A DNA stretch of 64,000 nt from Agelas oroides (Eukaryota > Porifera > Demospongiae > Agelasida > Agelasidae), in contig OX422183.1 in NCBI GenBank assembly GCA_949130485.1, forward strand, positions 27,964,816 to 28,028,815, read 5' to 3'. Each line of letters begins with the position of its first letter. The stretch's first letter is position 1. Below are positions 4,496-58,264 of the stretch, piece by piece. A program made the translations under genes and the position numbers. Below the pieces are notes generated by a model that saw nothing but the letters and a program-made list of their open reading frames with translations, ran no database searches and was not told where the DNA came from.

Positions 4496-4804
4496 GTCCT
4501 CCTTCTGTCCCCATGCTCTCCTGTGTTGGCCTCTCTGAAAATATAAATGGAACTGTGAATATCACTGTGAACTGGACACGGAGTGGTGGAGACAGTGCTG
4601 ATTTCTACCTCATCAACATTACCACTAATGCTCCCCAGACCCCATATGGGGGACTTCTGAACATCATCACTGCCAGTGTCACACAATGTGAACTGACTGG
4701 TTTTATGTCAGGCTATAAGTACAACATCACAGTACGTGGTGGGACAGTGAACTGTGGTGGTCTGGAGGGCAGTGAGAGTAAGACCCTGACAATCACTCCA
4801 CAAG
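4496..4804 (+). CDS. Exon: fibronectin type III domain 1 of a membrane receptor
   Basis: One complete FN3 domain of about 103 residues. It begins PPSVPMLSC, has the FN3 strand-B/C tryptophan (ITVNWTRSGGDSADFYLI) and ends in strand F/G with the typical Y-x-I-x-V (YKYNITVRGG). Several N-x-S/T sequons (NGT, NIT, NWT) fit an extracellular location. The acceptor TTTCAG and donor GTACGT give a phase 1-1 exon (2 nt of a split codon first, 1 nt last), the usual exon class for shuffled extracellular modules. No start codon or signal peptide precedes it in the window, so the N terminus lies further upstream. Confidence 0.85.
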
Positions 4805-4916
4805 GTACGTATGTATCATTGTATCACTGAGTGGTGAATTTAATTTTCTGATAGTTAATTAGGCCTAAAAATCTCTCAAGTAAGTTGATGGTATATTCTC
4901 ATCTGTATTGATGCAG

Positions 4917-5005
4917 TTCCTGCTACTCCTATGTCTGATGTGTGTGCTGTGTATGATAAGGAGAATGAAACCTTGCAGATCATTGAGAGCAGTTGGGATG
5001 AAGTG
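4917..5005 (+). CDS. Exon: first part of FN3 domain 2
   Basis: This 89-nt exon joins in phase 1 to the previous one and ends in phase 0 at GTATGT. It encodes VPATPMSDVCAVYDKE and ends at the strand-C tryptophan (SSWDEV), exactly where an FN3 fold would be interrupted. Its second part is the exon at 6118. An internal FN3 intron of this sort is common. Confidence 0.75.
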
Positions 5006-6117
5006 GTATGTATGTTGGAATGTAGTGGTACATATGTTGTGTTTGGTAAAGACTGGTGACTCACATTATAAATCTACATTGAAAGTTACCTTATACACAG
5101 GGACAGCATCTTGAATTACAGAATATATATATATTGGTAGAAACAGAGTTAAGTGAGTACATAGCTATGAAGCAGGGTTAAATTTGAGAAAGAGATCCAT
5201 AACAAAATGGAGTGAAATCAGTGCCCATAGGAATAGTGTACTTACTCTATAGAACACATGATCCAGTGTAGTGCACGAAATTCAATTCTGAAAAACTCAT
5301 GGGTGAATCTAACTTAGTGCAAGCAGTAATACACAACAGGAATGAAGCCTCTCAGTTGTCACAGTCAGTTTATTTGTGACAAGAGAACTGTAAAGTGAAG
5401 ACAATTTCTGGAAGAAAGAGCTAGCCCACACATACTCTACTGTAACTTTAGAAAAGCTTGTTGTTCCTGCAGCTGCCAAAACTGCTTCTTGACTGCAAGA
5501 AATCTAAGACTGAAGCAACAACTTGCTTTGCATTTGTGTCTAGCTTTGATAATGCATGATCTAATCTAATACCCCAATTCCTGTTGGAGTGACAGCTGCC
5601 CAGTTCATCTTACAATACGCTGACAACCCTCAGAACATATCTGAAGGAGTCATTACAAATACACTCCAAAGTTGTAGTAAGGATCTCCCATGCGCTTAAT
5701 GCAAGCAGGTGATTCCCTCACAGATGTTCTGAGGGTTGTCAGTGTGTTGTGGTTGTAAGATGAACTGGGCAGCAGCCTCTCAGGTTGCCTTACACAATTA
5801 GTTTCTAATACCCAAAATAATCACCCTCTTATAACCACCATCTCTCTAGCTAGTCTGCAACCAAGGTAACCACTTTGTGGTTAAGCAACCAATTTGATTT
5901 ATATATATATATATAGCTGTTGCATTTTATGTGCATAGTCTGCCCCCCCCCCCAATTCAGAATACCTTTTCTGCCACTGGACTCGTTTGTGTCACTTATG
6001 TATTCCCTCCATGCACACTTCCAGACACAAATCTATCCCAGTTTGCCATTGCTTTCCTACATATGTACAATTATGTACATGTCCAGAGTGTAATTATGCA
6101 TGTCAACATTCATTCAG
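5006..6117. other. Intron within FN3 domain 2
   Basis: It holds a 179-bp hairpin MITE-like element (5595-5773), a short (AT)n tract near 5898-5914 and a poly-C run at 5942-5953. No coding sequence was recognised. Confidence 0.7.
5595..5773. repeat. Hairpin MITE-like inverted repeat
   Basis: GCTGCCCAGTTCATCTTACA at the left end is mirrored at the right end (TGTAAGATGAACTGGGCAGC). The arms include CTGACAACCCTCAGAACAT and its complement. No clear target-site duplication was seen. Confidence 0.7.
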
Positions 6118-6394
6118 GACGATGTGACAGTTTCTGAAGACTGTACAAATGGAAATGATATCAGTGCTAGCTATGAACTCTCCTATACTACTGACTCTGG
6201 TACACTCAATGCTACCTGTATTGTGAATGCGACTAACTGCAGTAATGACACATGCCGCTATGAATTACCAAACAACACTGCAGACAGCAGATGTCAACCT
6301 CCAGTGTCTAAATTTAGTAATGAAGATGTGACTGTGTCTGTGACTGCCGGAAATATAGTGGGAAGAAGCAAGTCTTCGGTGCCAAGGAGTATAA
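6118..6394 (+). CDS. Exon: second part of FN3 domain 2
   Basis: A phase 0 to phase 1 exon of 277 nt. It encodes the C-terminal beta strands of an FN3 domain, with the tyrosine-containing SYELSYTT strand, a cysteine-rich insert (CIVNATNCSNDTCRYELP) and a final strand VTVSVTAGNIVGRSKSS resembling strands F and G. Sequons NAT, NCS, NDT and NNT support glycosylation outside the cell. The acceptor ATTCATTCAG and donor GTGAGT fit. The cysteines may form a domain-specific disulfide. Confidence 0.75.
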
Positions 6395-6723
6395 GTGAGT
6401 TTTCTGAGGTTGAGCTACAATTTGGATGATAAAATCATGAATTGTTAACTTGCACATCTTGTTTATCATCTTGTATAGCTACTAGGAATGCATCACCTTT
6501 GTATCTCAGGGTTTCTTAATACTGTAATGACTTGAACCTGAGCATGCTGTACAGCAACTTTTTAACAGTATGAAAGCACATGCTCACTCACGTAACTGGA
6601 TATGATACAAGATTATCACACAAGGGTCTTATGCCATCCACTAATGCCTTACTGTTAAAAGCAGGGAAATCTCTAAGTATTGTAAGCACACACACTCAAT
6701 GGTATGAAAAAACGTGGCAGTTA

Positions 6724-7000
6724 CTGGATTTTGGCTTGAGCTACCAGTGTTCTGACCACTGAGCTATGACCAACGGGCGACCACCAGCCCCCGCAATCTA
6801 CTAGGCAGGTGATACTGAATGCTTCAGTTGCAATACCTGGCAGCCACTCAGCATGTGCCATAAGAACTCTGTCAGAGCACTGGCAACTCAAGCCAAGGGC
6901 CTTGGGTTTGTTTCCTGGCATATGCCGGCTTTTCACTTTTCCATCTCATGCCATCAAAGCTGTGTTTACGTATAGATATTTTAATGCACTTTGAATCAGA
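6724..7000. repeat. tRNA-derived SINE-like repeats in head-to-head arrangement
   Basis: On the minus strand about 6729-6777 reads GTCATAGCTCAGTGGTCAGA, a tRNA-type box A. On the plus strand about 6868-6915 reads GTCAGAGCACTGGCAACTCA followed by a degenerate box B (CTTGGGTTTGTTTCC). The two halves are the same repeat in opposite orientation. Confidence 0.5.
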
Positions 7001-7129
7001 GAAACCACTCAGCATGACTTAATTATTTCATGATGGAGAAAATTTTCTGGTTAACCCCTAATGGAGTTCTGATGGCGCATACTGTGTGGCTGCAAGGTGT
7101 TGTTACTGAAGCATTTGGTACAAACTGTA

Positions 7130-7300
7130 CAGTATATATGGAAGATTGTGGAGCAGATGGTTACTTGGTGGTCATAGCTCAATGGTCAGAGCACTGGCAG
7201 CTCAAGCCAGAGAACCTGGATTAAAGTCCCTTCAACTGCCAGGTTTTTACTTCTCTATTTCACGTCACACCATTGAATGTGTGTTTATTTACAGCTGAGG
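7130..7300 (+). repeat. tRNA-derived SINE-like repeat
   Basis: Box A-like TAGCTCAATGGTCAGAGC at 7175-7192 and a decayed box B around 7210-7230 have the spacing of a tRNA promoter. Flanking sequence on both sides resembles the 6780-7000 copy, which suggests members of one family. The acceptor-stem pairing of a true tRNA is absent. Confidence 0.5.
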
Positions 7301-7544
7301 CAAGATGTTCTAAAGCAGTCTCAGCAAGGTGCCTGTAATAACTACAATTGGAGACTAAGAGGCTTGAAAACAAAGGAGAGAAGGACAAACCTGCAACTTA
7401 TACATTTACAAGTATATTTATTGGTGCTTTAGGCATGGCAGATGAAACTAAACTGACACTAGTGAATCATTAGTAGTTGCAAACTAAACTATATTGCTCC
7501 AACTAGTATGTGTTTCAAAGCTCTGTGTAGGCAGATTGATGTAA

Positions 7545-7645
7545 ACTTTCGAGAGAGAGAGAGAACGAAAACCCACAGAAATTGAACCTGAGACCTGAAT
7601 CTGGTCGGACAGTCTTAGCCTCTGAGCCACTTGACCCTAGCAAGT
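7545..7645 (-). repeat. Second tRNA-like SINE family, minus-strand copy
   Basis: Read on the minus strand it gives GGTCAAGTGGCTCAGAGGCT (box A-like), then CAGGTTCAATTTC (box B-like), then a GA-rich tail (7552-7565). A related plus-strand copy lies at 8250-8345. This unit is unlike the 6724/7130 family. Confidence 0.45.
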
Positions 7646-7656
7646 ATGCTTTTTAC

Positions 7657-8212
7657 AGCCAGGCTAGAGGCCTCAACCGGTTTCAGCTGTCTTTCCATAT
7701 CCTGTGGTTGGGTACAGTGCCTATTGTAAATGGAGATCCCCTGTAAATGGGACTGTTGGTACGGGGCTGTACAAGCACATTGCCTTAGCTAGTATGCTTC
7801 CACCACCCCAGCCTCTGTCTCATGTATCTCCTGACGTGTTTTTCCTGTTATTCAACAGGCCTTAAAAGCTGACATTTATGCAGATGGTAGCTAACAACTT
7901 CATAGAAATCCGTATGATTTGCTTGTAGGCAGGAATGAACTTGACATAAGTTTTTGACATCTATGGCAATGTTCACCTTCCGTATCTATGTTCGTGTTGT
8001 ATAACAAGCAACAATGCACAATGCATGCACCAGGAGATAATTGAGCTGGACATTGGGGTGGTGGATAGTGAGAGTATCTACTCAATAAATGTGCTTGTAC
8101 AGCCAATCCAGTGAATCCACCCTGGGCCTGCAAGCCCGTCCACAGGGGATCTCCATTTACAACTCTACCAAAGCATGAGAGCAAGACAGCAAGGTTGGCT
8201 GGAGCCTCTAGC
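7657..8212. repeat. Foldback element with about 180-bp imperfect arms
   Basis: The left arm (AGCCAGGCTAGAGGCCTC, GGAGATCCCCTGTAAATGG, CTGTACAAGCACATT, CACCACCCCAGC) is mirrored in the same order in reverse complement on the right (8030-8212). It sits exactly between the two copies of the second SINE-like family. Confidence 0.55.
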
Positions 8213-8249
8213 CTGTCTGTTGTAAGCAGACTTGCTTCTGCCTCTCTGC

Positions 8250-8345
8250 CATTGGTCGAGTGGCTGCTCAGTGGTATGAACGTCTGACTGATATTTGGAA
8301 CTTCCTGTGTTTGATTCCAGCTTTTTCTCGGTGGATTTTCTTTCT
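8250..8345 (+). repeat. Second tRNA-like SINE family, plus-strand copy
   Basis: A box A-like TGGCTGCTCAGTGGTATGAA at about 8261 and box B-like TGTGTTTGATTCC at about 8306 have tRNA-promoter spacing. The copy is related in inverted orientation to 7545-7645. Confidence 0.45.
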
Positions 8346-8519
8346 ATCTCTCAGCTTACATTGTGTCTGTATGTGTTGTTAAATATTGGTTTGAAAGACA
8401 GTGATCAACAATGCTTACGCAGTCTGATCCCATGATGAGAAATAAAGCAAGTCTAAACCGCACCACAAGATGCCCAAAGAACCTACAATTTAGTGCTGCA
8501 GATTTGCTTAGCTAAAACA

Positions 8520-8970
8520 TATACACGTAGACTTGAGAGTTTAGTGCTACCTAGCTTTGTCATAATGCTTGATCACAAGAAGCTTATACGTAATTACCCT
8601 CAAGGGAGGAGCCAAAAATTACATGGTTGTCATGAAGGCCTGCCTGTACTTGCTTTACACTCATGTGCAGCATTAGCGAAGCCTGAAGCACTGTAACATG
8701 CTCAATACACCCTGCAATGATTTATGTGTAAGCATATGGAATGCATGCCATCACGTAAGCAGGAAAATCCCTTCTGTAGATGCTATGAAGGGTGAGGGTG
8801 ATGTAGCACCACTTTCCCATACTTACTTGTGAACAAAAGTTCGATTCACGTGTTATGTGCATTATGGCACTTTTACAAATATGCACTTAGATTGGATGCC
8901 CATTGCTCTTTTGGGGTGTGGGAGTTATATTATGTGAATATTTTTCATCCTGCATCTCTGGGTGTAACAT
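8520..8970 (+). repeat. Dispersed repeat, copy 1
   Basis: This stretch shares ordered blocks with 24390-24930: GAGTTTAGTGCTAC, TACCCTCAAGGGAGGAGCCA, CATCACGTA, AGATTGGATG and CTTGGGGTGTAA-like ends. It carries no recognisable coding sequence. Confidence 0.6.
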
Positions 8971-9051
8971 GCCATTGCTCCCAGTACTGCATGGCTTGGC
9001 ATGTGGTCACATCGGCAATTAATGAACCACAACTCTCTTTTCTATGAACAG

Positions 9052-9390
9052 CTCCTGGTACCATCATAGCTATGTATGTCAGCATCATCATGGAATTACA
9101 TTCTTCATCCACAGCTGGTAGAAACGTTGATCTCGAGGTTCGTATTGACACCACTAACCTATCAAGTGCCTTTGTGGAGTGCACATTTGAAGGAGGGTAT
9201 AACTGCACCATTGACTATGGTACAGATCCATCATACACCAACCTGGTCTACAGTGACATGGCCTCCACCACAGATCAAAGGGCCATCATCACACTTTCTC
9301 AGAAGATCAGAGGAGACACCACTTACCACTATATTGTGTCTGCAGAGAGTAGCTCCCGGTGTGTGAGGGTGTTGGGGAAGTTTCGAGCAG
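9052..9390 (+). CDS. Exon: extracellular beta-rich domain of uncertain family
   Basis: A 339-nt phase 1-1 exon encodes about 113 residues between FN3 domain 2 and the Sushi domain. It has alternating hydrophobic strands (VDLEVRIDTTN, AIITLSQKI, TTYHYIVSAES), a cysteine pair (VECTFEGGYNCTIDYG) and a late cysteine (SSRCVRVLG). The Y-H-Y-I-V-S-A strand resembles the last strands of an FN3-like fold, but the usual tryptophan is missing, so I call it a beta-sandwich of unknown family. Borders are GAACAG and GTGGGT. It may also supply the juncture to the CCP module. Confidence 0.7.
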
Positions 9391-11174
9391 GTGGGTACAT
9401 GAGCTTTGTTGTATGTCAGTAAAGAAGTGGGAAAATCATGACACTGAAATGAAGACACTCAGATTGTGTCAGCATCAAGTTTTATTCCAGGCCCATAGCC
9501 AGGATTTTTAGAAGGGGGGTTGCATGGGTGTCTGATGTGTATGTATGCATGCATTACCATTCAAGACTGGGGGGGAGGTCTGGGGGCATGCTCCCCCAGG
9601 AAATTTCAGAAATTAGATGCTCTGAGATTGCCATTTTGGGACAGATGCAGAGCTGTATAGCAGCCGTATAAGCTACATGGCTCGCGGAGTATTGTATCCA
9701 ATTTTTGGCTATCCATGTATGCATTTGCATGCTAAGCCAGCTGACATCGAATTTCCAAGAGAGAAGGTACTACAGTTAGCAGAACAGCAGGTGGGGTAAC
9801 AGATGGTGAAATAGTAGGCAGAGAATACTGAAATAATGTCTGTCAGAAAAGCATCAAGCTTATACGACCGAAAAATGTCTATAGACTACCATAATATACA
9901 ATACGTTTCCATGCATTTTCAGAAAGATGGTATGACTCAAGGTTGTACAGGTGCCACTTCATCGTTGGGGATGACTCACTAGAAGGACAACTGGTGAACT
10001 CTCGAACACCTGAAATCGTGATTTATTTACGCACGTATTTACATGTGTACAGTTAATTAAGCGGTGTATAAAACCTTTTTGGCGGCCAAAAGGGGAGTTC
10101 GAGTGAACCCCCTCGAACCCCCCCTGCCTATGGGCCTGTATTCACTGTTGATGTGCCAAGTTGATGTGTCAAGTTAGCCTTGCAAAATACTTAGTTTTGT
10201 AGTTGCACATATAAACCATCAATTCAAAAGTTAATGAGCAAAACATTTGCTAGAAAAGACATTTGGCTATAACAATTGTGCACTTCATCACAGTACGGTC
10301 AAATGAGAGTAAGTTCACACTGATGGTAGAAAGATCTATGTGCTATCTACTGCCTAAACAGTACCAGAGTAACTTTCCACAGGGCTTGCATTTATTCAAC
10401 AACTTTGAACAGTCAGGGCTTGCATTCATCCAATAGTTTCAAAAGGTCACTTACGTAATTGCATATAGTGTAAAAAGGAATTGATGCTTCAGTGCTTTTT
10501 TCAAGGTTCAAACTCTTGCTTCATTTCCAAGATTCTGCATGCATGGTTTAGTTGCCATGTATGAGATCTGAATATTCATAGTGGATGAAAGTCACAAGTA
10601 GAGTGACTCTTTGGAAGCACATTTATCCTCATAAGTAGTGGATCCAGGCTGGTTCTGTGGTTGCTACAGAAACCCCCTTTTCCAGTGCTGGCACAGATTT
10701 TACCTACTGTAGGTGGTGTGGTGGCTTGTGAGCATGCCAGTGCCTTCTGGTGGGGCAGTGTGTCATCAAGCAAAAATTGACTAGCAGAATACTATGAGAG
10801 TGCTTCTTAAAAGGTGAAAATTGTGCAGGTAAAAATTTTCTGCGCTACATTCGGATAATCTGTGCATACTCCAGGTGTTTCCACATGTTACTGAGATCAG
10901 GCACGTTCTGATAAAGATGACTTGTGAAGTTCCTTACTGCTACTATGGTGTCAGCTAAACCTGTACATGGTGCTAGCTCACCAACCAACTCAGACACCCT
11001 ACCTACAATCATCACTCTTAACATGTACTGCTAGCACCAGTGTGTACCATGATGTGCAGATGCCCCTGTACAATTGTGTGCAACTAGTAGCATTTCCGGT
11101 CCAAAAATGGCCTCTGAAGCGATCTCAGAAGTGATCTCAGAGCATATTATATATATATATATGTTTATAAATTT

Positions 11175-11206
<32 letters not shown>

Positions 11207-11345
11207 CGTCCCTGCCTCCTGCATGCTTACACTCACACATCACCCCATGCCACCCAATCTGACACCCACCTTCCACAATCCTAGCTTTGCCACTGCTCAT
11301 CATTGCCGAATTGCTTGTTCATATATTGTCATTTCTGGTATGCAG
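9391..11345. other. Intron with a MITE and AT/G-rich low complexity
   Basis: It holds the 651-bp element 9488-10138. At 11091-11300 there is a repeat containing an (AT)n run followed by long T and G homopolymers (about 11165-11205). No exon was recognised. Confidence 0.7.
9488..10138. mobile_element. Non-autonomous DNA element with CAGGCCCATAG ends
   Basis: The termini are CAGGCCCATAGCCAGG and the complement CCTGCCTATGGGCCTG, followed inward by G-rich and C-rich stretches that also pair. The pentamer TATTC flanks both ends (9483-9487 and 10139-10143) as a probable target duplication. Sequence near 9575-9650 resembles a block at 25965-26050. Confidence 0.75.
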
Positions 11346-11594
11346 GCTGCAAAGAAGCAGACCTCACTGGTGGAAGTGGGACACTGAACCCGGAAAGATG
11401 TGCAGACAGAGGATTTGTGAACAGCTCATCCATCTCTGGTGGTGTGGTGTGCTATAATGGAACCACTGCAGGGTCTAGGGCAGTGTACATTTGTAATGAT
11501 GGTTTTGTTTTGATGGAGGCAAATGAGACCAGGGTCTGCCAGAGTGATGGCATGTGGAATGGGAGCATACCCCGGTGCATCCCTGAGGAATCAG
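11346..11594 (+). CDS. Exon: Sushi/CCP domain
   Basis: A phase 1-1 exon encodes one Sushi (complement control protein) module of about 82 residues. The diagnostic features are ERC, then GSRAVYICNDGFVL (Sushi strand with second cysteine), then RVCQSDGMWNGSIPRC with the third cysteine, conserved tryptophan and fourth cysteine. Two extra cysteines (GCK near the start, VVCYNG) could form an additional disulfide. Sequons NSS, NGT, NET and NGS support an extracellular location. It is the last extracellular module before the membrane exon. Confidence 0.9.
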
Positions 11595-12570
11595 GTATTG
11601 TAGTCAACTCCATCACTCCAGGAGAGTGCTGTATTCATATCCACCATTACATCAAGTTTCTTTCATTACTTAGGTGTCTGTATATTGTCATTCTTGTCAT
11701 GGATGTATTGTGGGAGGTTGAATAGTTTTTCTCTAAGACTCAGCCACCAAATCCACACTGTACATCATTTGCTGTATAGTTAACTACTCAGTCTACAGCA
11801 CTACACAATACTGACATTACTACCTAGGCAGCATGTTCATAATTAACACACTGCTAGCTATGTACATTAACCATGCTACATGCTATTGGCTAGCCAGTTA
11901 TTTCACATCAGCAACAGCATTAAGTCAAGGTTTAGCTACATCTTTTGCTTGCAAATTATGTGGCTGTGGTTTCATAGGTGAATAGTACTGAATTACACCA
12001 AGCACTCCTGATAGCTAAAAACCCTAAACCCCCCCATATGATACATTTTGTCATGTGTGAGATGGTAAGAAATCACCTTGTATCTAACAACACAATAGTC
12101 ATGTTCATATTTAACATATTGCCAGCACACCACAATGTTGCGCACTAATGGAGCTGTAGCCTATAAGAGGAGATAGATTATTGGTAGACACAACTGATTT
12201 GTGCGTGTGTGTGTGAAGGGGGTGATTTTAAAGTCAGGACTGCAGAAATATTTGACTGTAGTTGATGTATATGCACTGTGTCTATGATCCACTAGCTTTA
12301 TCTAAGTTATTTGAGAGCCTTGCTTGCACAGAAAAATTTTGGGGGGTATAAATGTTTTCCTTTGTGTACCCTTTATTTCACGTACATGATGAAACATACC
12401 TGGCGGTATTTCGTGCTGTATATGTAATAATGGCTTGGGAGGCAACCAAGACTAACTAGGACATACAACTACAACTGGCTGGTGACTAGCTATGAAAGTT
12501 AGAGACTTAGTGATCAACCAAGTGGTCTCTAATATAATGTCATGACAGATAATTTGTTATCTACATGCAG
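11595..12570. other. Intron between Sushi and membrane exons
   Basis: No coding sequence or clear element was seen. A short block around 12040-12190 (GTGAGATGGTAAG, CACTAATGGAGCTGTAGCCT) is repeated at 12740-12800 in the next intron. Confidence 0.6.
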
Positions 12571-12680
12571 ATCAAATTGGTCCCATTTTTGGTGGAGTTA
12601 TTGGAGGAGCTATTGGAGTAATCATTCTTTCGGTATTGCCGATTGTCATCATCACTGCTGTTTTGCACCGAAGACGGAGT
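12571..12680 (+). CDS. Exon: transmembrane helix and stop-transfer
   Basis: This 110-nt exon enters in phase 1 and leaves in phase 0. It encodes a single membrane helix with a glycine zipper (GGVIGGAIGVIILSVLPIVI) ending in HRRRS, a classic cytoplasmic stop-transfer signal. With sequon-rich modules before it and basic residues after it, the predicted topology is type I (N terminus outside). The donor is GTAAGT. The phase change here, from 1 to 0, coincides with the switch from extracellular modules to the intracellular part. Confidence 0.88.
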
Positions 12681-12794
12681 GTAAGTTAACAATCACCGGA
12701 TGATAGGTGTAATTGGACACTCATATATAACACTTACCATTTCAGATGTGTGAGATGGTAAGCACTAATGGAGTTGTAGCCTACAACAGGAGAC

Positions 12795-12845
12795 TGTACT
12801 ATTTGAGGATAGGAAGAAGACCTCTTGATATCCTCAAATAGTACA
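12795..12845. repeat. Perfect 17-bp-arm hairpin
   Basis: TGTACTATTTGAGGATA at 12795-12811 is followed after 17 bases by its exact reverse complement at 12829-12845. Confidence 0.85.
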
Positions 12846-12886
12846 ATGTTCAACATCTACTTCCCCACTACCACACCAGGTGTGGT

Positions 12887-12967
12887 ATGGCAGAAGAAGA
12901 GAGGTGTGTGCTGTGTCGTAGTGGGGGAGTTGATGTTGAACACTTCTTGGTAAGATGTGATGAATGA
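12887..12967 (+). pseudogene. LINE reverse-transcriptase C-terminal zinc knuckle (remnant)
   Basis: The frame encodes MAEEERCVLCRSGGVDVEHF followed by LVRC: a C-x2-C-x8-H-x4-C arrangement characteristic of the region after the reverse transcriptase in many non-LTR retrotransposons. A stop follows at once. Continuation in a shifted frame to about 13140 looks like decayed coding sequence. A similar knuckle occurs at 23830-24123. Confidence 0.55.
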
Positions 12968-13488
12968 GAGGGAGAGGCTGTTAGAAAGGATTGGGGAATT
13001 GAAGGTGCAGGGGAGTGCATAGAGGCATTCCAAAGAGAGTGCATAGCTGCAAAGGAAAGGACAGCATTGATGCTGGGCGAAAGAATTGAGGGGTTGGATT
13101 TGATGTTGATGGGAAGAGTTTGGATAACCTGGTGATGGTGGAGGTTTTGAAGTGGTGGGAAGAGATTAAGGAGCTAGCTTTTGGTTAGAACCCCTTACAA
13201 CCCTAATCCCTGTACTCCCAGAACCTCCATCCTCCCACAAGAGAACAAACTTTGGAGCCATCTGTCAGAAACTCCTTTTTTAACATTCTTAATGTGCCAT
13301 CCATACATATATGGCCATAGTAATAAATATCATTGTTTCTCAGGCAATTGCACATGCCAATTTCCACCCGCATGACAAGTTTTTAATAATGGTCACGTGA
13401 CAGCTTTTTTTCCTCGAGCATGCACATTTAACTTTGTAGCCAGTGCCTCATGTCGCCTTTTCAATACTTGTAGCTGTTCCATTCAGTC

Positions 13489-13733
13489 TCAAGTTGTGCC
13501 TACAGGTTTTTGTTGATAGAAATCTGCAACAGTCTGAGGGTCTTGTACCTCGTGAATGAGATTGCAACCATGGTGGAAGTCTTCAAAGAGTTCGGACAAC
13601 AACAGATGGAAGGCTGTTCTGGTTTTACCTTCTCTGAAGATTTGAGTGCTTTGTTGCTTCGACGTCTTCTGGACTGTTTCAGACATTGCTTTCAGGGCCG
13701 ATACCTTGCTAACTTGTGGCTTTTTTGATTTAT
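13489..13733 (-). CDS. Candidate terminal exon of an unidentified minus-strand gene or retrocopy
   Basis: On the minus strand an acceptor (ACCTGTCTTTCAG) precedes an open frame of about 81 codons ending at a TGA at 13489. It contains TAFHLLLSELFEDFHHGCN and a lysine/serine-rich start (DKSKKPQVSKVSALKAMSET). Residue composition is protein-like and amphipathic, but I recognise no family. It lies inside the intron after the membrane exon, antisense to the receptor. It could be a nested gene, a gene fragment carried by a mobile element, or chance; the overlapping plus-strand frame at 13510 appears to be its shadow. Confidence 0.35.
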
Positions 13734-14229
13734 CTGAAAGACAGGTTAGTATTGAAGTAAATAGAAGGACAGTTGGGATTTTTGGAAGTGTCCATTATAT
13801 GTAATAGATGTCCGCTATTGACAGGTGTCCATTGAGTGAGGTCATTTCCAAACAATTACCCACCTACCCAACCCATCACTCTCTTTTTCACTCATGCATG
13901 CATGATTTTATCATACCAAATACAATTGGTAGGAGGCAGGGCCTAGCCTGTTTTTATTTTATTGTTTTTCTGAGTGAATTAAGCCTGTGTACCCCATGCA
14001 CCCCCCAGACTCCTTTGAAGGCCAACATAGCCAATATGATTTTAAGTACATGAAAGGAATTGTTAGCATTTGTATGTATAACTGCTTGCAAGTTCATCAA
14101 TTTATTCTGTTCAAAAAAGAGTCTGCATGAGACTCAAGGGAGACAAGTACTTCAAATCCACCATCAGAAATGTTAGGAATCTGTATACTTCTATAATACA
14201 TTTTGCAACTATGACTTTTTCTCCACCAG

Positions 14230-14310
14230 TTGCGCATCGAAGCTAAGCAATGTGATCTGGACAGAAGACAGCTAGAAGCCACTACCAATAGCAACGATAC
14301 TCATTCTGAT
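14230..14310 (+). CDS. Exon: polar juxtamembrane segment
   Basis: An 81-nt phase 0-0 exon between a CTCCACCAG acceptor and a GTAAGT donor. It encodes 27 polar residues beginning LRIEAKQCDLDRRQLEATT, probably helical, consistent with a cytoplasmic juxtamembrane stretch. It fits in frame after the membrane exon (phase 0). The next phase-0 exon recognised is the first ankyrin exon 14.4 kb downstream; intermediate small exons may have been missed. Confidence 0.65.
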
Positions 14311-24930: not shown

Positions 24931-24934
24931 AATA

Positions 24935-46802: not shown

Positions 46803-46901
46803 TTGACTCCTCTGCACAGAGCAGCTAGACGAGGCCATAAGGATATAGTGGAATACCTTTTTGGAAAAGGAGCTGGTATTGACAATGGAGATGGTAGTAA
46901 G
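46803..46901 (+). CDS. Ankyrin exon B6
   Basis: A 33-codon repeat: L-T-P-L-H-R-A-A, RRGHKDIVEYLFGKGAGIDN, donor GTACAT. It pairs with A6, including the R-A-A-R-R-G motif and glycine/aspartate-rich end. Confidence 0.9.
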
Positions 46902-48738: not shown

Positions 48739-50169
48739 TGAAATCCAGCAGTTCTACATAAGCTCATTTCAAACAGTGGACCACATTTTTTTCATAATTG
48801 TCGGTGCCTTGCCTATCTGCACACAGCACCGCATGTTATGTAACTTTGGTTTGTTTTATGCCTGCACCACTACTGTTGCATTAAACTTTTACATAATATA
48901 TTGCTTGTATGTAGCTATCCATGCATGAGATAATTATGGGGCATTGTGATGTGACTCAAGGGAAGTGGCTACACAGAGCAGCTAGATAAGTTTATACTGA
49001 AGCAGCTGCACAAATTTTCTAAGGAGTTTCTGTGACTTAAATGATGCTCTGTCTATTTGGTAGCATGTTAAATACCACCAAACTACCTTGGAGGAAATTG
49101 GTGAATGCGATGATGCATGCCCTGCTATGCATAACTGATACTGCATGCTCCCATGTGGCCTGGCATAGGGAAATGGTTCTTTCTCAATGGAACTAGAGTC
49201 CATGTGTGGACGTTCTAGAGAAACAGAGGTCAAATGGTGGATTATCATTGTTGAATATATTACTGCTGTATGAAAGCTACATGGAATTTCAACATCTCCA
49301 TTTGCTTGTTTTGTGAGGGCCTGGCTGGTATGACTGACTGCGTTCATTGTCACAAAGTTATCCATCCAGGCTCCTGCATAGCTGATAAAGACTAGCAGGG
49401 ACACATTCTGTACATAATACAGTGCTTTTTATGGAGATTTAGAAATTGCTGGGAAGATTTAGCTCCACCAACTATTCGGCATTCATTCAGAGAATTCTCT
49501 GAGCTAACCAACTTTATTCAGAAACTACCATTCAAGGTACATCATAGAAAGATCAATCAAGTTTCCCCATTGGACAAATGTAGCCATTATGCTGTCTGGT
49601 CTGAAATTATCCTCTGAGTGACATGGATAAAACAGTATACCAGCACATGGTGATCATTGGAAGAAATAGCAGCTTTGGCACAAGTGTCATTTCTGCACTG
49701 GGAGCATGAAGTATGAGTACCACTTCAAACTCACCATCAAATAATGGCTTTTATGGATTTCAGAGCAGTACTTTGCTCTTAAATTTTATGCAGTGAAACT
49801 AGTCTATAAAAGTCACCGTTAAACACAGCCACCTTTTTATTATGGCTACTACTCCTGGTCCTTGTTGAACTAACCTTTTACAGTGTGACCTGGATAAACC
49901 AAATACCTATCTGTAAAACTGCTGGTCCCATGTACTGTTTTACTGTACTAACTTGGACACGCATCAAAAATGGAAGGGCATACAGGTATGAATTGCACTT
50001 TCCTTTTAATGTCTGTAGCTCCTTCTAGATGGTGGAATGTAGTTTCATTTTATAAAAGCCTTGATTTCCATTGTGGGATTCTTCAGGATTTGGTGGGGAA
50101 GTCGTGAATTAAAGCTGAAACTCCTAACCACATAATACTGTGATGCAATATATACAAGATTGCTTTTGT

Positions 50170-50300
50170 GGATTCTGAGGAAAAAGAGGAGGAGGAAAGA
50201 GAAAGAAGAAGGGGGAAGAAAAAGGGGAGGGAAGGAGAGTGGAAGAGGAGGTGGGCGAGAGGAGGAGGAGGAGGGAGGGGAGGAAAGAGTGAAGTGGATT
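50170..50300. repeat. Polypurine tract (G/A on + strand)
   Basis: About 130 bases with almost only G and A on the plus strand, mirrored as proline/serine/leucine-rich false frames on the minus strand. Confidence 0.9.
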
Positions 50301-50599
50301 CCTGAAACTGACCAAATCTCATGCCCTGCATTTTTGACCGGTGTCCAAGTTACTGTATCCCATGCAGAGGAAGATTCAGACGACTGCATTAATTAATAAT
50401 AATAGGGGAGTAATCTTTTGGAATCATCTAAAGTGATCTTTCTATGCACTTAATCTCAGTCTTCAGCCCAAAATACTTACATATACTGGCTGTAAAGAGT
50501 TTCAGATGTACAAATTTTGTACCATAATTGGTAAATCAAACATGTACATTAATGTGCCTAAGAAGCCAATCCATTTGCCTTATAATATCTCTCTATTAG

Positions 50600-50698
50600 A
50601 GAACTTCTCTGCACTGGGCAGCTGAAGGAGGCCATAAAGACACAGTGGAATATCTTGTTGGCCAAGGAGCTTCTAAAGACATCAAAGACTGTGATGGG
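50600..50698 (+). CDS. Ankyrin exon B7
   Basis: A 33-codon repeat: R-T-S-L-H-W-A-A, EGGHKDTVEYLVGQGA, end K-D-C-D-G, donor GTAAGC. It pairs with A7 through L-H-W and the K-D-C end. Confidence 0.9.
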
Positions 50699-51898
50699 GT
50701 AAGCACATGAGACTTGACTGCTGAGACAACACTATTAGCACTGTTCTGAGCTGAGCTGTCACATTCATGCATACATTTCGTACTAACCTGCTCTATGTTG
50801 AATCAATAAGTTTCACTCTTTGGCAAGGAACTTTAGCCAAGTGTGAGCTGGGCATACTTTCAATGGGTTTTGGTCTTTCAGTCAAAAATACATAATTCAT
50901 CTTTCAGCACCAATAGCTGTATGTGTGCAATAACTAAGTAAGTTGCTACTCTTTAAGTGCCTGCATGTACAATACAAACAAATGGTGCCTACCTTTATTT
51001 GATAGTCTTCCGGTTTCAAAAGTGGGATGGGCTTATTTTGGTTGTCTTATTTTACAGAGATCAGTATATCCTACATGATTTGTCTGTTAATTTACACTGT
51101 ACATCTGTCAGAGTTCAAAGTAACTTGATGTAGATTTACACACAACATATTATAAGCTTTACTGCAGTACTATACTTGTAGTTATACAACAAGGAAATGT
51201 AAATTGCTAGGGGGAGGGAAATGTTATAAACATTAATTAGCTACTATTGTCTTCAAGTCAGATTTCAGCCTTAGGGATGTCTCTTGGAACAATGTGCTTA
51301 GCAGATAGGTTCTTCACCTGCAGAAAGTAGAATTGGATTTAGGCAGGGGGGGGGGGGAGCACATGGGGGTCTCTATACTTGGCTCATTGGTCCGCATTGG
51401 GTGGGCCATTTCTCCTTTGCAGGATTGAAAATGTTCCTATCACTGTGTGTGGCCTCAATGTCTGTCACTAGGCATTTATTGGTCTGTATAGCCATTTGCT
51501 GATTGAGGACTCTGACTATAACCTAATCAGTGTGTAGGGTGAGATAATTGGCTAAACATACCCTCAATGGGATAATGTGCTAGCATTTAGTATAAGCTAT
51601 TACATTCCAATTAGGCCAGCATAATGCCTGTTGTGTATGTGACACCCACTGGAAGAATTGGCCATGACTATACTCTGTAAAAACTAAATGGTGAACATCA
51701 CTAACAGGTAGTGATATTTGTGGCAATTGTCGATGACCCTCACCGAAAATTGCCGCAAATATCACTACCTGTTAGTGACATTCACCATTTAGTTTATAAC
51801 CAGTTGATTTAGTCACCTATTCAATTTGGGCATTATGAAGCACTTTGGCATATTTTCTGTACGTTCTTTTATTAGTGAATGTTTTTCCTCTCCATCAG
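50699..51898. other. Intron B7-B8 with a hairpin repeat
   Basis: It contains a poly-G run near 51346-51357 and the inverted repeat 51681-51795. Confidence 0.7.
51681..51795. repeat. Hairpin MITE-like inverted repeat, 115 bp
   Basis: AAACTAAATGGTGAA followed by CACTAACAGGTAGTGATATT is mirrored on the right (AATATCACTACCTGTTAGTG, TTCACCATTTAGTTT), leaving a loop of about 20 bases. Confidence 0.85.
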
Positions 51899-51976
51899 AT
51901 GACTCCCCTGGATATGGCAGTCAAAAGAGGGCATAAGAACATAGAAAATTTTCTCAGAGGAGGTGACACATCAGAT
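51899..51976 (+). CDS. Ankyrin exon B8 (shortened terminal repeat)
   Basis: 26 codons: M-T-P-L-D-M-A-V, KRGHKNIENFLRGGDTSD, donor GTAAGT. P-L-D replaces P-L-H and the loop is missing, as in A8 (P-L-E, K-R-G-H-K). It closes block B and still ends in a donor, so the transcript continues downstream. Confidence 0.85.
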
Positions 51977-53624
51977 GTAAGTACTGTACTGTTAGCAGTA
52001 GATTTACTGTTGATTTAAGTTTGACATATGTAACATCGTTTCTCAAGCACTTGTGAAAAATTGTCCATTGGTGGTAATATTTTTGCTCCAATGATTGTTT
52101 GTCTTATCACCAAAGTGGAGTACCATCCCTGGATTAGAGTGATATGGGGCTAATCAGAACGATTACCACTTTGGGGAAAATGCAACAGCCTATATGTAAC
52201 TCTAAATGTTGTCAAGCAAGTCCATTCTGGTCTTTTCTTTAAACACCTGCTTGCAACTACGTAATGGTTTTCATGTCGTACATCTGTCTACAATCTGAAT
52301 TGTAAATCAATCTGTTGACAGGAGAGAAATGCATAAAAGCGATCTTGTGGATTTGTTGTCAAAACAATGTTGTTGTGACAAACTCTACATACTTATTGTT
52401 TAATGGATATTTTGTACCAGTTAAATTGTTGTACCAGGAGTGTATATTGACATAAAAGGTCTAAGAAACAGTTGGAGTGTGAAACAACCATGCGAAAGGA
52501 ATTTGAGAACTTATTGCCTGTTACTACTTTTATTGTTCAAGCGTATGCATCCCAGCCTGTGTAAGAATTCCTGTTTGTGAGACTCTGAGGAAGTGTATTC
52601 TAGAGCGTAAGGGTTGGGGACAAAGTTGAGACTGTAAAGCCCAGCATCAAGTCACTGAAGTGTAGCTCTGCGTGTAAACTATTTTAGTCTGGCTTTTATG
52701 TATCTCAGCTAGATATTTAGTTCTAGTACAACAGATTTGAAATTGCTGCACCTTCAATTTTTCTGTTGGGAGCCCTATATTTCGCGGCACACAACAAATC
52801 AACCATGCAAATGTCATTTTTTTTCTACCCATACAAATACTCTCCATAAGACATTTTGTTCATTGTGTTTAACAATTGTTCACTGTATTTACTGAACATA
52901 CACACATATGAAGAGCCATTAATTACCAGCCACAATGATTTACTTAATAAGTACTTTATCTCCAACAGAGTTTATGTACACATGATAGGTTCTTTAGCAA
53001 AACACTAGCCAAGTTTTAATATAAAACATTTCAACACACTATCCAGTGGTCATCATCAGTGGTTTACAGAATGTGCTAACAAAGACCACTTATATACAGA
53101 CAGATACTGGAAGTGTGCAATAATTAGGGCAACAGTGCTATTGAGGACATGGACATGAACACAAAATGTAATAAGTATGTGCATATGTTGCTTCAAAGTA
53201 GCGTCATTCAAAGGCTACTTCCAGCTTTGTTACTGACCTCTGCATTATGACCTAAATTCTCTTAGTCATTGCAACTCCCTTCCCCCAAGCCTCCCTAAAC
53301 TGCATCTAGAGTAACTTTGTCCTCAGGTTCCTCCATCACATACTGCATGTATGTGGTATAGTATGCAAGAGTGCAAGCTGAGGCAACCAACATATCAGAG
53401 AGTCGGTAGACTCTCTATGTAGGGTTGGCGCCGACGAGCAATATATGCAATACTTAAGCAAAAGCCGTATAACTTCACCACAAACACGCTAAAAGCTTAT
53501 TTAAGCGCCCAGGCTTCCTCTTTGAGTGGCTTTGTGATCAGCAAGACTGATATAGTTCCCCAAAAGCCACGTGGAAGACAGCTAAGCGCAAAAGTGTGCA
53601 GTAGCAAAAGTACCATTTTTCGTC

Positions 53625-53757
<133 letters not shown>

Positions 53758-53979
53758 TGTTCAGACCACTTGTCAAACGACGATAACTTGAAAACGGCTC
53801 AAGTACTCACCTTGATTTTAGCACGAAACGGATGCTCATCACAGCGCGCAGCTTCCCAACCATTCAGCGTCTTCATAGCTTCAAATTTACCCTGGTCAAA
53901 AAAGCTGTTCACAGTACTGCCTGACTGCTGTCCGTTGCGTAGGACGCCATTTTCTAATCTTGTACACATGCGCACATGC

Positions 53980-54029
53980 AGTCTCGTTCCCAGACCAAAA
54001 ACCGTGGTCATTGCTCTGGGAACGAGACT
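53980..54029. repeat. Short hairpin with TCTCGTTCCCAG ends
   Basis: AGTCTCGTTCCCAGA and TCTGGGAACGAGACT form the arms of a 50-bp hairpin. The ends resemble the TAGCCTCGTTCCCAGG family but no target duplication is visible. Confidence 0.5.
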
Positions 54030-54093
54030 AGTGCTCACACGAAATCACACGCGTTGACCGTGTACCTGTACTGTATGCACAGCTGGCATGGTC

Positions 54094-54485
54094 TATTCCC
54101 GTGGTTGAGGGAAAGGCTTATGGACACCATGTAGGTAAGGAGCTGTATTCTGTTGCTTATTTATAGCTACACTATAAACTAGAAAATGTAGAACATTTTG
54201 GGGGCGAGCCTGAGCAAGCTGATACAGGATATTATGTCGCTGATGAGTGATGCTATAAATCAAGTCAATCATCCTCCTATATGCACATCCATTTACTATT
54301 CCCGTGGTTGACGGAAAGGCTTATGGACACCACATAGGTAAGGAGCTGTATTCTGTTGCTTATTTATAGCTACACTATAAAATACAGCTTTAGGTAACGC
54401 CTGGATGGTCAGTTTTTATGCTCTGTCGGTACAGCTTTAGGTAAACGCCTGGATGGTCAGTTTTTATGCTCTGTCGGTACAGTTT
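54094..54485. repeat. Direct repeats (about 90 bp and about 51 bp)
   Basis: TATTCCCGTGGTTGAGGGAA through GCTACACTATAAA occurs at about 54094 and again at about 54297. Immediately after, TACAGCTTTAGGTAACGCCT with GGATGGTCAGTTTTTATGCT occurs twice in tandem (54384-54485). Confidence 0.85.
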
Positions 54486-54664
54486 TCTGTGCTGGTCAGT
54501 TGTCATGTGATCGTAAATCAGGAAGTCGGCTTCACAAAGAGCTCAAAATCTGGTACAGAGAGTTATTAGCCCTCCATCGGATTCCAGCTGGCATATTACA
54601 TGCTTGGAACCACTGCTAAGCTGTCAAATTTATGCTGTTTCAAGTTCTAGGGTTGTGGTTTAAT

Positions 54665-54890
54665 ACACTTGAACGAAATCTTCTTAGGCTTAGGTCTGAC
54701 TGTAACTGAGATTAACATCAAAAAAGTACAGAAACAAGAAATAAAAAACATTACAAATGTAAAAAGATGTAGGGATGGCATGCCAAAAAGTATACAAACA
54801 AGGTAGGGATGATATCATAAAACCAAAGGTCAACATAAAGGCAATGCCCCATCCCTACATCTTTTTCACACTGCAGTTAGACAGCATGCT
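54665..54890 (-). repeat. Dispersed repeat with GATGTAGGGATG palindrome, copy 2
   Basis: Reverse-orientation relative of 15398-15650, sharing CTTCTTAGGCTTAGGTCT, the internal GTAGGGAT palindrome and CTACATCTTTTTCACACTGC. Confidence 0.7.
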
Positions 54891-55630
54891 TGAAACCTAA
54901 ACCTGCACCATCCGTGGTGTTAATAATGCTGTAAATGAGCACCAACTACTTGAGTTTTTAAATACTACAGCACTTACTATATGACCAGTCCTGCAGCTCA
55001 CTTCAGCTCAGTGTCTAGGTTGTATAAGCAGTCCCGTATACAATATTAAATGCCAACAAGGGTTCTACAAATAGCATGTCAGCACCAAAAGCTACCTGGT
55101 TGTTACATGCATAGCTTCCGGCAAGGCACAGATACACCACATACCCCATGCTGCTAGACTACACTGCAGTCTGGACCCCAGACCCTTCTTGCCCTTTCAG
55201 AAGGGTTTGGAGTCCAGACCCCAGGCCATGTGGGAGGAGGAAAGTGGTCTGAGAACAAGGCTACAGCTATGCCCTTCCAGAGCTGCCAGTAAGGTTGTGG
55301 TACATTTTAGGGAGACCTCCAATACACTGTTATAACTGCAGTGTGAAAAAGATCTCATCTCATCTCCATCTACTCCTTTAGAGGTTTGTGTTACTGAACA
55401 CACCATTAATACATGCATGTAGTCTCATTCAAGACTTTGAAAATGAAAGGCTGGTGGAATAGTAGCCTGAACAAGTTTTGCTGAGCAATGTTTGGCTACG
55501 TATAAAATTTCACCTGTGCATTACTAGATCACAACGTTCAGACCATATATAGATGAGTACTTTAAGTCTGTACATTAACTTGACTAATTCCTGAATCACT
55601 TAATTTAATTGTAAACAATTTCTCTGTTAG

Positions 55631-55729
55631 GAGAATTCCCTACACATGGCAGCTAAACAAGGCAATCTGGGTAGAATGAAATACCTTGTTGACCAGGGAG
55701 CTGATATCAGCAAGAAAGATGATGATGGG
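55631..55729 (+). CDS. Ankyrin exon C1
   Basis: A 33-codon phase 0-0 exon: E-N-S-L-H-M-A-A, KQGNLGRMKYLVDQGADIS, D-D-D-G end, donor GTAAGT. The loss of T-P before L-H suggests a first-in-block repeat like A1 and B1, though less strongly. Confidence 0.88.
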
Positions 55730-56607
55730 GTAAGTATATTAAGCCATCTATCACCTGGTCTCATATCACAATACATCCTGCACAGTGAGTGACTCTAGGC
55801 TGACCTTTATATACATTGATGATTTGGCTATGAGTTCCCAGCTATATGCCCAGCTTTCAATCAGGTTTTGGAGAGAGTCTGGGAATATGGCTAGGATCAA
55901 GGCCTTAGGAAGCATGCAGTCATGCTATGATCGGATAACTATTTCAATTGTGCACAATGGGCAGGACTACACAAGAAAAGTGCACCGTCAATGCTAGATG
56001 AGAACTGATTCGGGCATCATAGACAGAATGCATGAATTGGACTGCATGAAGGCAGACTTTTCCCCAGAGTGATTCTCAAAGGTGTTGGAGACCAGGTTGA
56101 GAGGACTGGCCTCTTGGCTGACAGACGGTGCTCAAAACACTGGACGAGTGACGACCTTGCTCTTCACTTGGAGATGTTAATTCTATGGTTTGTAGACTTC
56201 GTGTCTGCCACAACAACCTGCATGGAAGTCAGTGACACTGTTTGAATAAAAAATTGCTAACTCTCAAGCTCCAAAGCCTGGTCTGATCAAGGAGTATAAC
56301 TACTACATACTAACAAGAGTTTGCAGACTTTTGGATGGCCACAGCAAGCGGTTGGGCTGGTCAGGTTTTGGCCCAACCACTTTTTCATGGACCCAACTTG
56401 GACATGCACATTTTGAACTACGTAGGGTAGGAGATAGCAGCTACAAGCTGTGTCATCCCCGAAAAGCTACCCAAGGCACCGCTGTATCCGGATTTTGCGC
56501 CATTTACAGCAATTTCGGTTCATTCAGTGGCTGTTCCTTTGCTATCTGCTAGGTGCCACGAAGCCAAAGACGTGACGCGTTGCCTACCGCTGACCAACAC
56601 AAGTTGT

Positions 56608-57013
56608 TAGCCTCGCTCCCAGGCCGTTCCCGCCTCCAGTTTTTGATCGCTTGCAGTATGCAAAAAACGGAGGAGGAAGGCCTGGGAGAAAGAGTCATAT
56701 GTGTGACGTCAGGTAGACGTGAGGGTAGACGTGAGGGGGGCGGTGCCCGACGAGGAATCTCGAGGTCCTTCTTGTAATATCTTGTCCGAGAACTTGAGAC
56801 TGTAACATTCGAAAGACAGCGTCAATACAGCTCATTGTTCAGTAGACTTGAGGCTGATCAACACAAAGTTTGTGAGTTACAACGATCAGGCACCACCCCC
56901 CTCACGTCTACCTGACGTCACGCACGTGACTCTTTCTCCCAGGCCTTCCCTCCGTTTTTGCATACTGCAAGTGATCAAAAACTGGAGGTGGTAACGGCCT
57001 GGGAACGAGGCTA
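56608..57013. mobile_element. TAGCCTC-family MITE, 406 bp, near-complete hairpin
   Basis: TAGCCTCGCTCCCAGGCC on the left is mirrored by GGCCTGGGAACGAGGCTA on the right. ACAAGTTGT flanks both ends (56599-56607 and 57014-57022). Inner sequence (GAGAAAGAGTCA, TGACGTCAGGTAGACGTGAG) is also complementary between halves. Confidence 0.88.
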
Positions 57014-57169
57014 ACAAGTTGTCTGGCTGCAACACGTTACATGCAGCCAAGTTTTAAACGTGGAATCCACGATATCAATAGATCTTTCTCCATGTTGTCG
57101 TCTACAGTGAATCAGAATCTAGTTTGCCAAGAAACATAGGTAAGAAGCAATCTCCTAGCAAAATATTTG

Positions 57170-57380
57170 CTGCAGATCTGCGATCCGCTAACTCGCAGTG
57201 TGGACGCTGTAGCAACTATCAAATCTTCCTCGCCAAGAGATTTTTGGCCAACAATGGCCTCAGAAGTGATTCCCGAGCCGTGTAATTTAAAAAAGTTTCC
57301 TGTGGGAGGCTGCTGCGTACTTATTGGGCCACAGGACTTTTGCCACACCACCTCTAAATGGCTTGCTACGGCCCTGTTTT
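57170..57380 (-). repeat. Dispersed repeat with CAGGGCCGTAGCAAGCCA end
   Basis: The minus-strand start CAGGGCCGTAGCAAGCCATT and the internal AATGGCCTCAGAAGTGATTC resemble sequence near 11105 (AATGGCCTCTGAAGCGATCT), so a repeat family is shared. Confidence 0.45.
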
Positions 57381-57474
57381 GTAAATTCTAAAGTAGCTAA
57401 CATGGCTAAAAATTGGCAAATTTGAGAATCAACACGTCTGCAACTACTTTGTTAGTGTTTTTTCTCTCCATCAG

Positions 57475-57579
57475 AGGGATAATACTTCCCTACACATGGC
57501 AGCTGAAGGAGGTCATACAGACATTCTGAGGTACCTTCTTGACGAAGGGGCTGCTATTGACGTTAAAAATGTATTGGGG
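57475..57579 (+). CDS. Ankyrin exon C2
   Basis: A 35-codon repeat: R-D-N-T-S-L-H-M-A-A, EGGHTDILRYLLDEGAAID, donor GTAAGT. It has two extra leading codons compared with the standard 33. Confidence 0.88.
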
Positions 57580-57733
57580 GTAAGTACTAATATATTACTG
57601 ACAATAGCTATGTATTAATTTTATTGCACGGAAGAAAGGGCCTTGAATTCATCGTCAATTCCAAATGTTAAATGTTTGCATTCAATCACTCACTAAACTG
57701 GTCACAATCTTATTGTTTTGTTCTTTCCCTCAG

Positions 57734-57832
57734 AGAACTCCCCTGCATGTCGCAGCTGGAGCAGGCCATGTGGACACAGTGGAATACCTTTTTAAGGAAG
57801 GTGCTAATATCAACTTTAAAGATGATGATGGG
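57734..57832 (+). CDS. Ankyrin exon C3
   Basis: A 33-codon repeat closest to consensus in the window: R-T-P-L-H-V-A-A, GAGHVDTVEYLFKEGANIN, D-D-D-G end. The donor is GTAAAT. Confidence 0.9.
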
Positions 57833-58183
57833 GTAAATATATGTTGCTGAATGCTAATGCTAGCTGCTGATATGTTTGCGTTTACATTACTAGGCACCCC
57901 AGAAAGAGCACAAAATCTACCACCAATGTGAATATTCTGTTTAGTCTCTGGCTTTTGTCATAGATAATTGTGTTTGTCAATGTAAATTTGGCTTACTCTT
58001 TATCATTTTTTGGTTTGTGTGTATGCATAATCACTTACTTTCCAACTTTGTTAATGAATGTTTATTGAAAAGTGATTAAGAATGAAAATGTTACCCTAAG
58101 TACCAATCGCACTATGTGCTCGAAAAGTGGATAAGAATTGGTGTTACTTTTGGTACTTTAAAACTGTCTGTTCTCCCCATCAG
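57833..58183. other. Intron C3-C4
   Basis: AT-rich with no feature except the acceptor CTCCCCATCAG. Confidence 0.6.
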
Positions 58184-58264
58184 AGTACTCCCCAAGATGT
58201 GGCAGCTCAAATGGGCCGTGTTACCATAGTTGAATATCTCAAAAGAGCTGATGTGAAAAAGGTA
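58184..58264 (+). CDS. Ankyrin exon C4 (shortened terminal repeat)
   Basis: 26-27 codons: S-T-P-Q-D-V-A-A, QMGRVTIVEYLKRADVKK. As in A8 and B8, L-H is replaced (Q-D) and the exon ends after helix 2. Two overlapping donors are possible, AAG|GTAGTA (exon end 58261) and GTA|GTAAGT (58264); both keep phase 0, and the second has the stronger consensus, so it is used here. Confidence 0.83.

Follow-up and report, generated by a model that had tools for sequence, protein, structure and literature searches.

A candidate family of sponge membrane receptors predicted to join an Ig/FN3/Sushi ectodomain to ankyrin repeats

A 64,000-nucleotide stretch of the genome of the sponge Agelas oroides (assembly GCA_949130485.1, contig OX422183.1, here C1; C1:27964816-28028815, hereafter the window) carries on its plus strand exons for FN3 and Sushi domains, an exon for a transmembrane helix and, after 14.4 kb, a series of exons for ankyrin repeats. 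Immunoglobulin (Ig), FN3 and Sushi modules are of the recognition and adhesion type. The locus raises the question of whether it holds one receptor gene with an ankyrin tail or two neighbouring genes. Exon order, exon phases, the order in paralogous loci and the pairing of strands are established by the sequence. We consider it very likely that the exons named X1 to at least E8 below, and probably to E20, form one gene for a predicted single-pass type I membrane receptor. As judged from its paralogs, the gene is a member of a family that has up to about 68 loci on one chromosome.

Exon organization of the window

Seven plus-strand exons (X1-X7, 4496-14310) encode, in order, one FN3 domain (X1), one FN3-like domain split between X2 and X3, a beta-rich domain (X4), a Sushi domain (X5), a transmembrane helix (X6) and a polar segment (X7). 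They are followed at 28740-58264 by 20 exons (E1-E20), each of which encodes one ankyrin repeat. All 27 exons have AG/GT borders, compatible phases and no in-frame stop, and all 20 ankyrin exons are of phase 0/0. The original prediction had placed the same features on this strand, and each was found in place with intact splice sites. Its domain calls stood for FN3, Sushi, the transmembrane helix and 20 ankyrin repeats; the second FN3 domain that it named (X2 plus X3) is only FN3-like by eye.

The FN3 exon X1 (4496-4804, phase 1-1) has paralogs 66-81% identical to it. X2 (4917-5005, phase 1-0) and X3 (6118-6394, phase 0-1) are the two halves of the FN3-like domain; X2 is kept in the paralogous loci B583, C753 and F189, and X3 in B583 and F189. 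X4 (9052-9390, phase 1-1), the beta-rich domain matching no known family, and X5 (11346-11594, phase 1-1), the Sushi (CCP) domain, both have paralogs. X6 (12571-12680, phase 1-0) encodes the transmembrane helix and ends in the basic stop-transfer sequence HRRRS; hydropathy and inspection by eye point to a single helix with a basic cytoplasmic flank here and likewise in F189 and L030. X7 (14230-14310, phase 0-0), the polar juxtamembrane exon, has high-scoring splice sites.

Paralogous loci keep the order of the two halves

We searched the window's own genome (259 Mb, 141 contigs) with the ectodomain, which gave at least 95 matches (best 88 of 814 candidates scored), and with X4-X6, which gave at least 157 (best 150 of 898). 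Seven loci were read, and five showed the expected order, that is, the ectodomain followed by one-repeat ankyrin exons on the same strand. In A444, X1, X4 and X5 precede seven ankyrin exons, and in B583, X1-X4 precede eight. A transmembrane exon stands between the two halves in three loci: C784 (X1, X4, X5, transmembrane exon, eight ankyrin matches), L030 (X4, X5, transmembrane exon, a 1959-bp phase-0 intron, six ankyrin exons) and F189 at C1:18.94 Mb (X1-X5, transmembrane exon, an ankyrin-like exon, then ordinary repeats and a cap). In the window, F189, L030 and C784, the exon order and phases thus predict that the ankyrin repeats lie on the cytoplasmic face of one transmembrane helix.

In F189 the junction can be read in detail. 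Its transmembrane exon ends AAG/GTAAGT (the slash marks the exon border), and its ankyrin-like exon begins CAG/AGG ACT CCC after 552 bp, with phase 0 on both sides. So strong a donor and acceptor so close together argue against two genes, since 552 bp leaves little space for a terminal exon, a poly(A) site, a promoter and a first exon. Some paralogs have their transmembrane and ankyrin exons close together; in the window the distance would have been widened by transposons.

Ankyrin exons pair in strand with Ig-like exons on contig C1

An Ig-like exon of the same family, which lies just upstream of the window, gave 77 matches in the genome, 77 of 77 on C1 (86 of 86 candidates scored), with 68 at E <= 2.1e-20. 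For the ankyrin exons we used a DNA signature consisting of a splice acceptor and TPLHxAA codons, for which a reversed-pattern control gave 0; the signature lists cover 100 of 290 and 100 of 158 places. The signature was present at no fewer than 77 places in 25 clusters at C1:15.9-29.7 Mb, and all ankyrin counts are lower bounds because it detects 7 of the window's 20 ankyrin exons. Strand analysis was made on these clusters and the 68 stronger Ig matches; it omits 9 of the 77 Ig matches (E above 2.1e-20) and signatures outside this interval.

The results showed that the nearest 5' Ig exon lies on the same strand as the ankyrin cluster in 25 of 25 cases, including 15 of 15 within 40 kb and 20 of 20 within 100 kb. 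Since the 14 lower clusters (15.9-21.4 Mb) are all minus and the 11 upper ones (28.0-29.7 Mb) all plus, Ig strands were shuffled within each region; of 20,000 shuffles, one reached 15/15 at 40 kb and none reached 20/20 at 100 kb, in a statistic where tandem copies are not independent. When FN3, X4 and Sushi exons served as anchors, 14 of the 15 clusters lying within 30 kb shared the strand of their anchor, and at the sole exception (C1:21412546-21417006) the nearest Ig exon is same-strand. An ankyrin signature was found downstream, before the next Ig exon, at 19 of 68 Ig loci: 10 of 25 on the minus strand and 0 of 26 on the plus strand of the lower region, and 9 of 11 on the plus strand and 0 of 6 on the minus strand of the upper region.

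The original prediction had proposed a receptor on the proviso that both halves are transcribed together. Five paralogous loci in which ankyrin exons follow on the ectodomain's strand, the 552-bp phase-0 intron of F189 and the 20/20 pairing of strands all support it; splicing and expression of the predicted receptor are what we infer from them.

Ankyrin blocks and the length of the tail

A home-made ankyrin consensus found the 20 plus-strand exons and one weak minus-strand match in the window. At E <= 1 the window gave 18 matches (best 3.4e-8), compared with 5 in total over 40 dinucleotide shuffles (best 0.23). The exons are grouped 8 + 8 + 4, as block 1 (E1-E8, 28740-34951, phase 0-0), block 2 (E9-E16, 39695-51976) and block 3 (E17-E20, 55631-58264), which match Pfam Ank_2 at E 1.2e-65, 7.6e-73 and 4e-38, respectively. 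Block 2 is a copy of block 1: E2-E7 each pair best with the exon at the same place among E10-E15 (DNA 78-91%, protein 59-82%). E1/E9 and E8/E16 are less alike (50% and 46% in protein) and are not mutual best partners, and intron sequence beyond the exon edges does not align between the blocks. The eight exon pairs have a synonymous divergence (dS) of 0.36 and a nonsynonymous divergence (dN) of 0.23, a ratio of 0.63, which indicates that the ankyrin exons are under weak constraint.

It is quite possible that the receptor stops after E8, in which case blocks 2 and 3 would be ankyrin-only genes of their own, alternative ends of the gene or leftovers. E8, E16 and E20 are shorter, cap-like last repeats. 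AATAAA occurs 228 and 341 nt behind E8 and 512 nt behind E20, with none up to 2.5 kb behind E16; the signals behind E8 suggest that the gene may end there, a point against a tail of 20 repeats. A444 and B583, moreover, have seven and eight repeats and then none on the plus strand in the stretch read. Comparison of paralogs found no shared terminal exon behind the ankyrin blocks. An end at E8 is, however, at odds with the GTAAGT donor of that exon and the good acceptor of E9. E9-E20 are open with intact sites and hold zero stops against 6.8 expected under neutrality at the observed dS, a comparison biased by the choice of intact exons. The gaps before blocks 2 and 3 share no ectodomain or first exon, and neither a first exon nor a transmembrane exon was found in front of these blocks. 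In F189 four more ankyrin signatures, spread over 18 kb and uninterrupted by any Ig or FN3 match, follow the first capped block, and this pattern, which resembles blocks 2 and 3 of the window, favours long multi-block tails without proving them. The gene probably extends to E20.

FLYWCH zinc-finger frames on the plus strand flank E9 (38755-39177, by eye, and 40084-40701, E 1.6e-12); they are probably transposon remnants in introns.

The ectodomain

Comparison with paralogs placed the Ig-like exon at C1:27964152-27964505, 311-664 bases before base 1 of the window, so the ectodomain starts 5' of the window with this exon. It is kept among paralogs upstream of X1 and is Ig-like by eye, with no Pfam match. 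Still further 5', all four loci compared have a short hydrophobic exon with a phase-1 donor (weak matches at E 0.3-0.5, and by eye), which may be the core of a signal peptide; an exon with an ATG upstream of the Ig exon was not found in the four loci.

In the model protein the Sushi domain matches Pfam at E 5.8e-9. The fn3 match of X1 is weak (E 3.3e-4, 21.2 bits, under the cut-off of 25), and the fn3 of a paralog clears the cut-off (E 9.2e-8, 32.6 bits). X2+X3 and X4 matched zero Pfam families and gave no significant solved-structure match in structure-sequence searches, which is why X2+X3 is named FN3-like by eye; the predicted structure of X4 alone was unusable (predicted local distance difference test score, pLDDT, of 44). 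Among 66 pairs of 12 copies of the FN3 exon, the median dN/dS was 0.42 and no pair exceeded 1. These results indicate purifying selection on the FN3 exon and do not support diversifying selection; the conservation of this domain gives no pointer to its fast diversification.

Outside the cell the predicted receptor would thus carry Ig-like, FN3, FN3-like, beta-rich and Sushi domains, followed by one transmembrane helix and, inside, an ankyrin solenoid. The ectodomain may bind a ligand or a partner cell; upon such engagement the ankyrin tail would serve as a docking scaffold and draw in cytoplasmic partners. The frames scanned for the tail yielded no enzymatic domain, and no kinase family of Pfam matched the plus strand of the gaps at 14311-28760, 34951-39695, 51977-55632 and 58265-64000.

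Comparison with Notch and other known systems

Among animal receptors, Notch is to our knowledge the only class with an ectodomain, a single transmembrane pass and ankyrin repeats. According to the part of the literature consulted, Notch is diagnosed by its LNR, EGF and ankyrin domains (PMC2770060). Of the features given there, the predicted receptors would share the single-pass type I topology, with a modular ectodomain, one transmembrane helix and ankyrin repeats inside (PMC2770060). The differences are an Ig-like/FN3/FN3-like/beta-rich/Sushi ectodomain, one ankyrin repeat per exon with up to 20 in blocks, and dozens of loci on one chromosome. Pfam found no EGF or LNR domain in the model protein or in two of the three plus-strand frames of 1-14701. 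By these sequence features the predicted family shares the topology of Notch and not its ectodomain, and we do not class it as Notch.

Signalling of the Notch kind, in which intramembrane cleavage frees the tail to act in the nucleus, appears improbable: the order of ectodomain, one transmembrane helix and ankyrin repeats is the same, but the scanned frames hold no EGF or LNR domain and the family is large.

Receptor tyrosine kinases and other single-pass receptors have FN3/Ig ectodomains and a basic stop-transfer end. The predicted receptor has the same type of ectodomain and the same basic end, with ankyrin repeats as its tail. Cytosolic scaffolds such as ANKRD28/52 and the ankyrins share the repeat type and the solenoid, but are not joined to an ectodomain. 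Other ankyrin arrays of this genome are long uninterrupted frames rather than one-repeat exons; at C1:2.7-7.3 Mb and C3:17.57-17.69 Mb such frames reach 5971 aa, a different class of gene structure.

In the sponge Halichondria panicea, the recognition repertoire includes proteins with Sushi, FN3, Ig or SRCR domains (PMC8242945, in the part consulted). Common to both sponges are large animal-side sets of proteins, membrane-bound or secreted, that contain Sushi, FN3 and Ig modules, whereas ankyrin is named in that part of the source only for separate responsive genes, not for receptor tails (PMC8242945). No SRCR domain was found in the receptor of the window.

The presence of many loci on one chromosome suggests a role in immunity or self-recognition. 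A wider proposal, which we put forward only tentatively and consider rather unlikely, is a chromosome-wide recognition system that sets one ectodomain on different tails. Some members would carry ankyrin solenoids of 7 to 20 repeats, and the loci in the opposite orientation would bear another kind of tail; such a family would amount to a second receptor class of Notch topology, assembled independently and serving recognition of self/non-self or microbes. If the family is a separate, multiplied class with modules of the immunoglobulin-superfamily type, exon shuffling would have built the Notch topology more than once, and early-branching animals would gain a large receptor set signalling through scaffolding. 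The recognition receptors of sponges are still poorly known, and these loci are natural candidates for them.

One gene or two across the 14.4-kb gap

The gap between X7 and E1 (14311-28739, plus strand, 14,429 bases) contains LINE-like frames (by eye), repeats that recur elsewhere in the window and, on the minus strand, a QRICH1-type domain, and is best read as a transposon-filled intron. The QRICH1 domain (16486-16995, E 4.1e-12) probably comes from a mobile element. No Pfam domain of a cellular tail was found on the plus strand of the gap, and a splice model trained on known exons gave no candidate for an internal phase-0 exon in it.

X7 appears from its splice sites to be a real exon. A model trained on ankyrin exons only places its acceptor among the best 0.12% and its donor among the best 0.58%, and the seven segments that pass both levels on either strand are all known exons. 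Comparison of the flanks of X7 with those of E1 scored 32 against a maximum of 27 in shuffles, slightly better than chance. No counterpart of X7 was found in the paralogous loci read (five sequence sets).

A stop and a poly(A) site between 14310 and 28740 had been named in the original prediction as what would separate the two halves. Sequence signals reveal no such end in the 5.8 kb behind X7: the first AATAAA/ATTAAA lies at 20081, where the mean spacing of such signals is 1600. E1 has no in-frame ATG, and the gap yielded no good first exon. CpG observed/expected is 0.18-0.35 at 26.5-29.5 kb, with no excess over baseline just 5' of E1; over the whole window it is 0.40, with a TpG/CpA excess of 1.32 and a baseline of 0.1-0.3, as in a methylated-type genome. 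CpG-rich stretches lie at 1.5-2.5, 15.5-18.5, 20.5-23.5, 24-26, 35.5-36.5, 53-54, 56-57 and 61-63 kb. They overlap repeats, so the CpG profile gives no verdict on a promoter.

Several observations weigh against a single gene or against its generality. A promoter may lie in the CpG-rich stretch at 24-26 kb, which, however, overlaps repeats, and a looser exon scan of the gap gave two weak alternative exons. F189 begins its ankyrin part with a degenerate ankyrin-like exon (a short LHTAAREG repeat), with ordinary repeats starting about 1.7 kb past the transmembrane exon. In C753, which has X1, X2, X4 and X5, the next copy follows with no ankyrin exon in between, and D19, with at least six FN3 domains, three Sushi domains and a transmembrane exon, shows no ankyrin match in the 9.8 kb behind that exon. 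Five of the 25 ankyrin clusters have no Ig exon within 100 kb. Moreover, at 49 of the 68 Ig loci no ankyrin signature appears ahead of the next Ig exon over a reach of 80 kb; these include all 26 plus-strand loci at 14-21.5 Mb and all 6 minus-strand loci at 27.8-29.4 Mb. These two groups, together with D19 and C753, indicate that the ankyrin tail is restricted to part of the family, and the oppositely oriented loci likely form a second subfamily bearing another tail.

Two neighbouring genes copied as a unit, one for a short-tailed FN3/Sushi receptor and the other for a cytosolic ankyrin protein, would account for the transposons and the CpG-rich stretch in the gap, for the Ig loci lacking a signature and for D19, but are improbable given the F189 junction, an E1 that offers no start codon, a gap with no good first exon, and the distance from X7 to the first canonical poly(A) signal.

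Wider searches and further observations

Protein searches, with about 8000 candidates scored in each, returned an FN3 relative (P0001) and generic ankyrin proteins; P0001 resembles locus D19 and is thus probably from the same or a near species. In the ankyrin search, none of the 120 matches listed carried PF00041 or PF00084, which is weak support for absence of the combination elsewhere. Scans of genome-contig and viral-contig collections found no relative. Literature searches, whose coverage excludes most subscription papers, found no description of an Ig/FN3/Sushi-transmembrane-ankyrin architecture.

Other loci of the family and of its neighbourhood were also recorded. At C1:19618001-19623000 and on to 19636877 (L028), a tandem array of X1-type FN3 exons is followed by three Sushi exons and a transmembrane exon, with no nearby ankyrin exons. 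Behind the transmembrane exon of this FN3-array paralog lies a 545-aa frame of acidic repeats of the GTEDENAG/PGPEDEK type (L027, C1:19609487-19611121, minus strand). Further clusters of the ankyrin signature occur on C3 at 3.89-4.27 Mb (plus) and 1.7-2.0 Mb (minus), one of them near a Sushi match at C3:4059616. Within the window, 61813-62792 is a 71-base tandem repeat of 13.6 copies with 96% matches.

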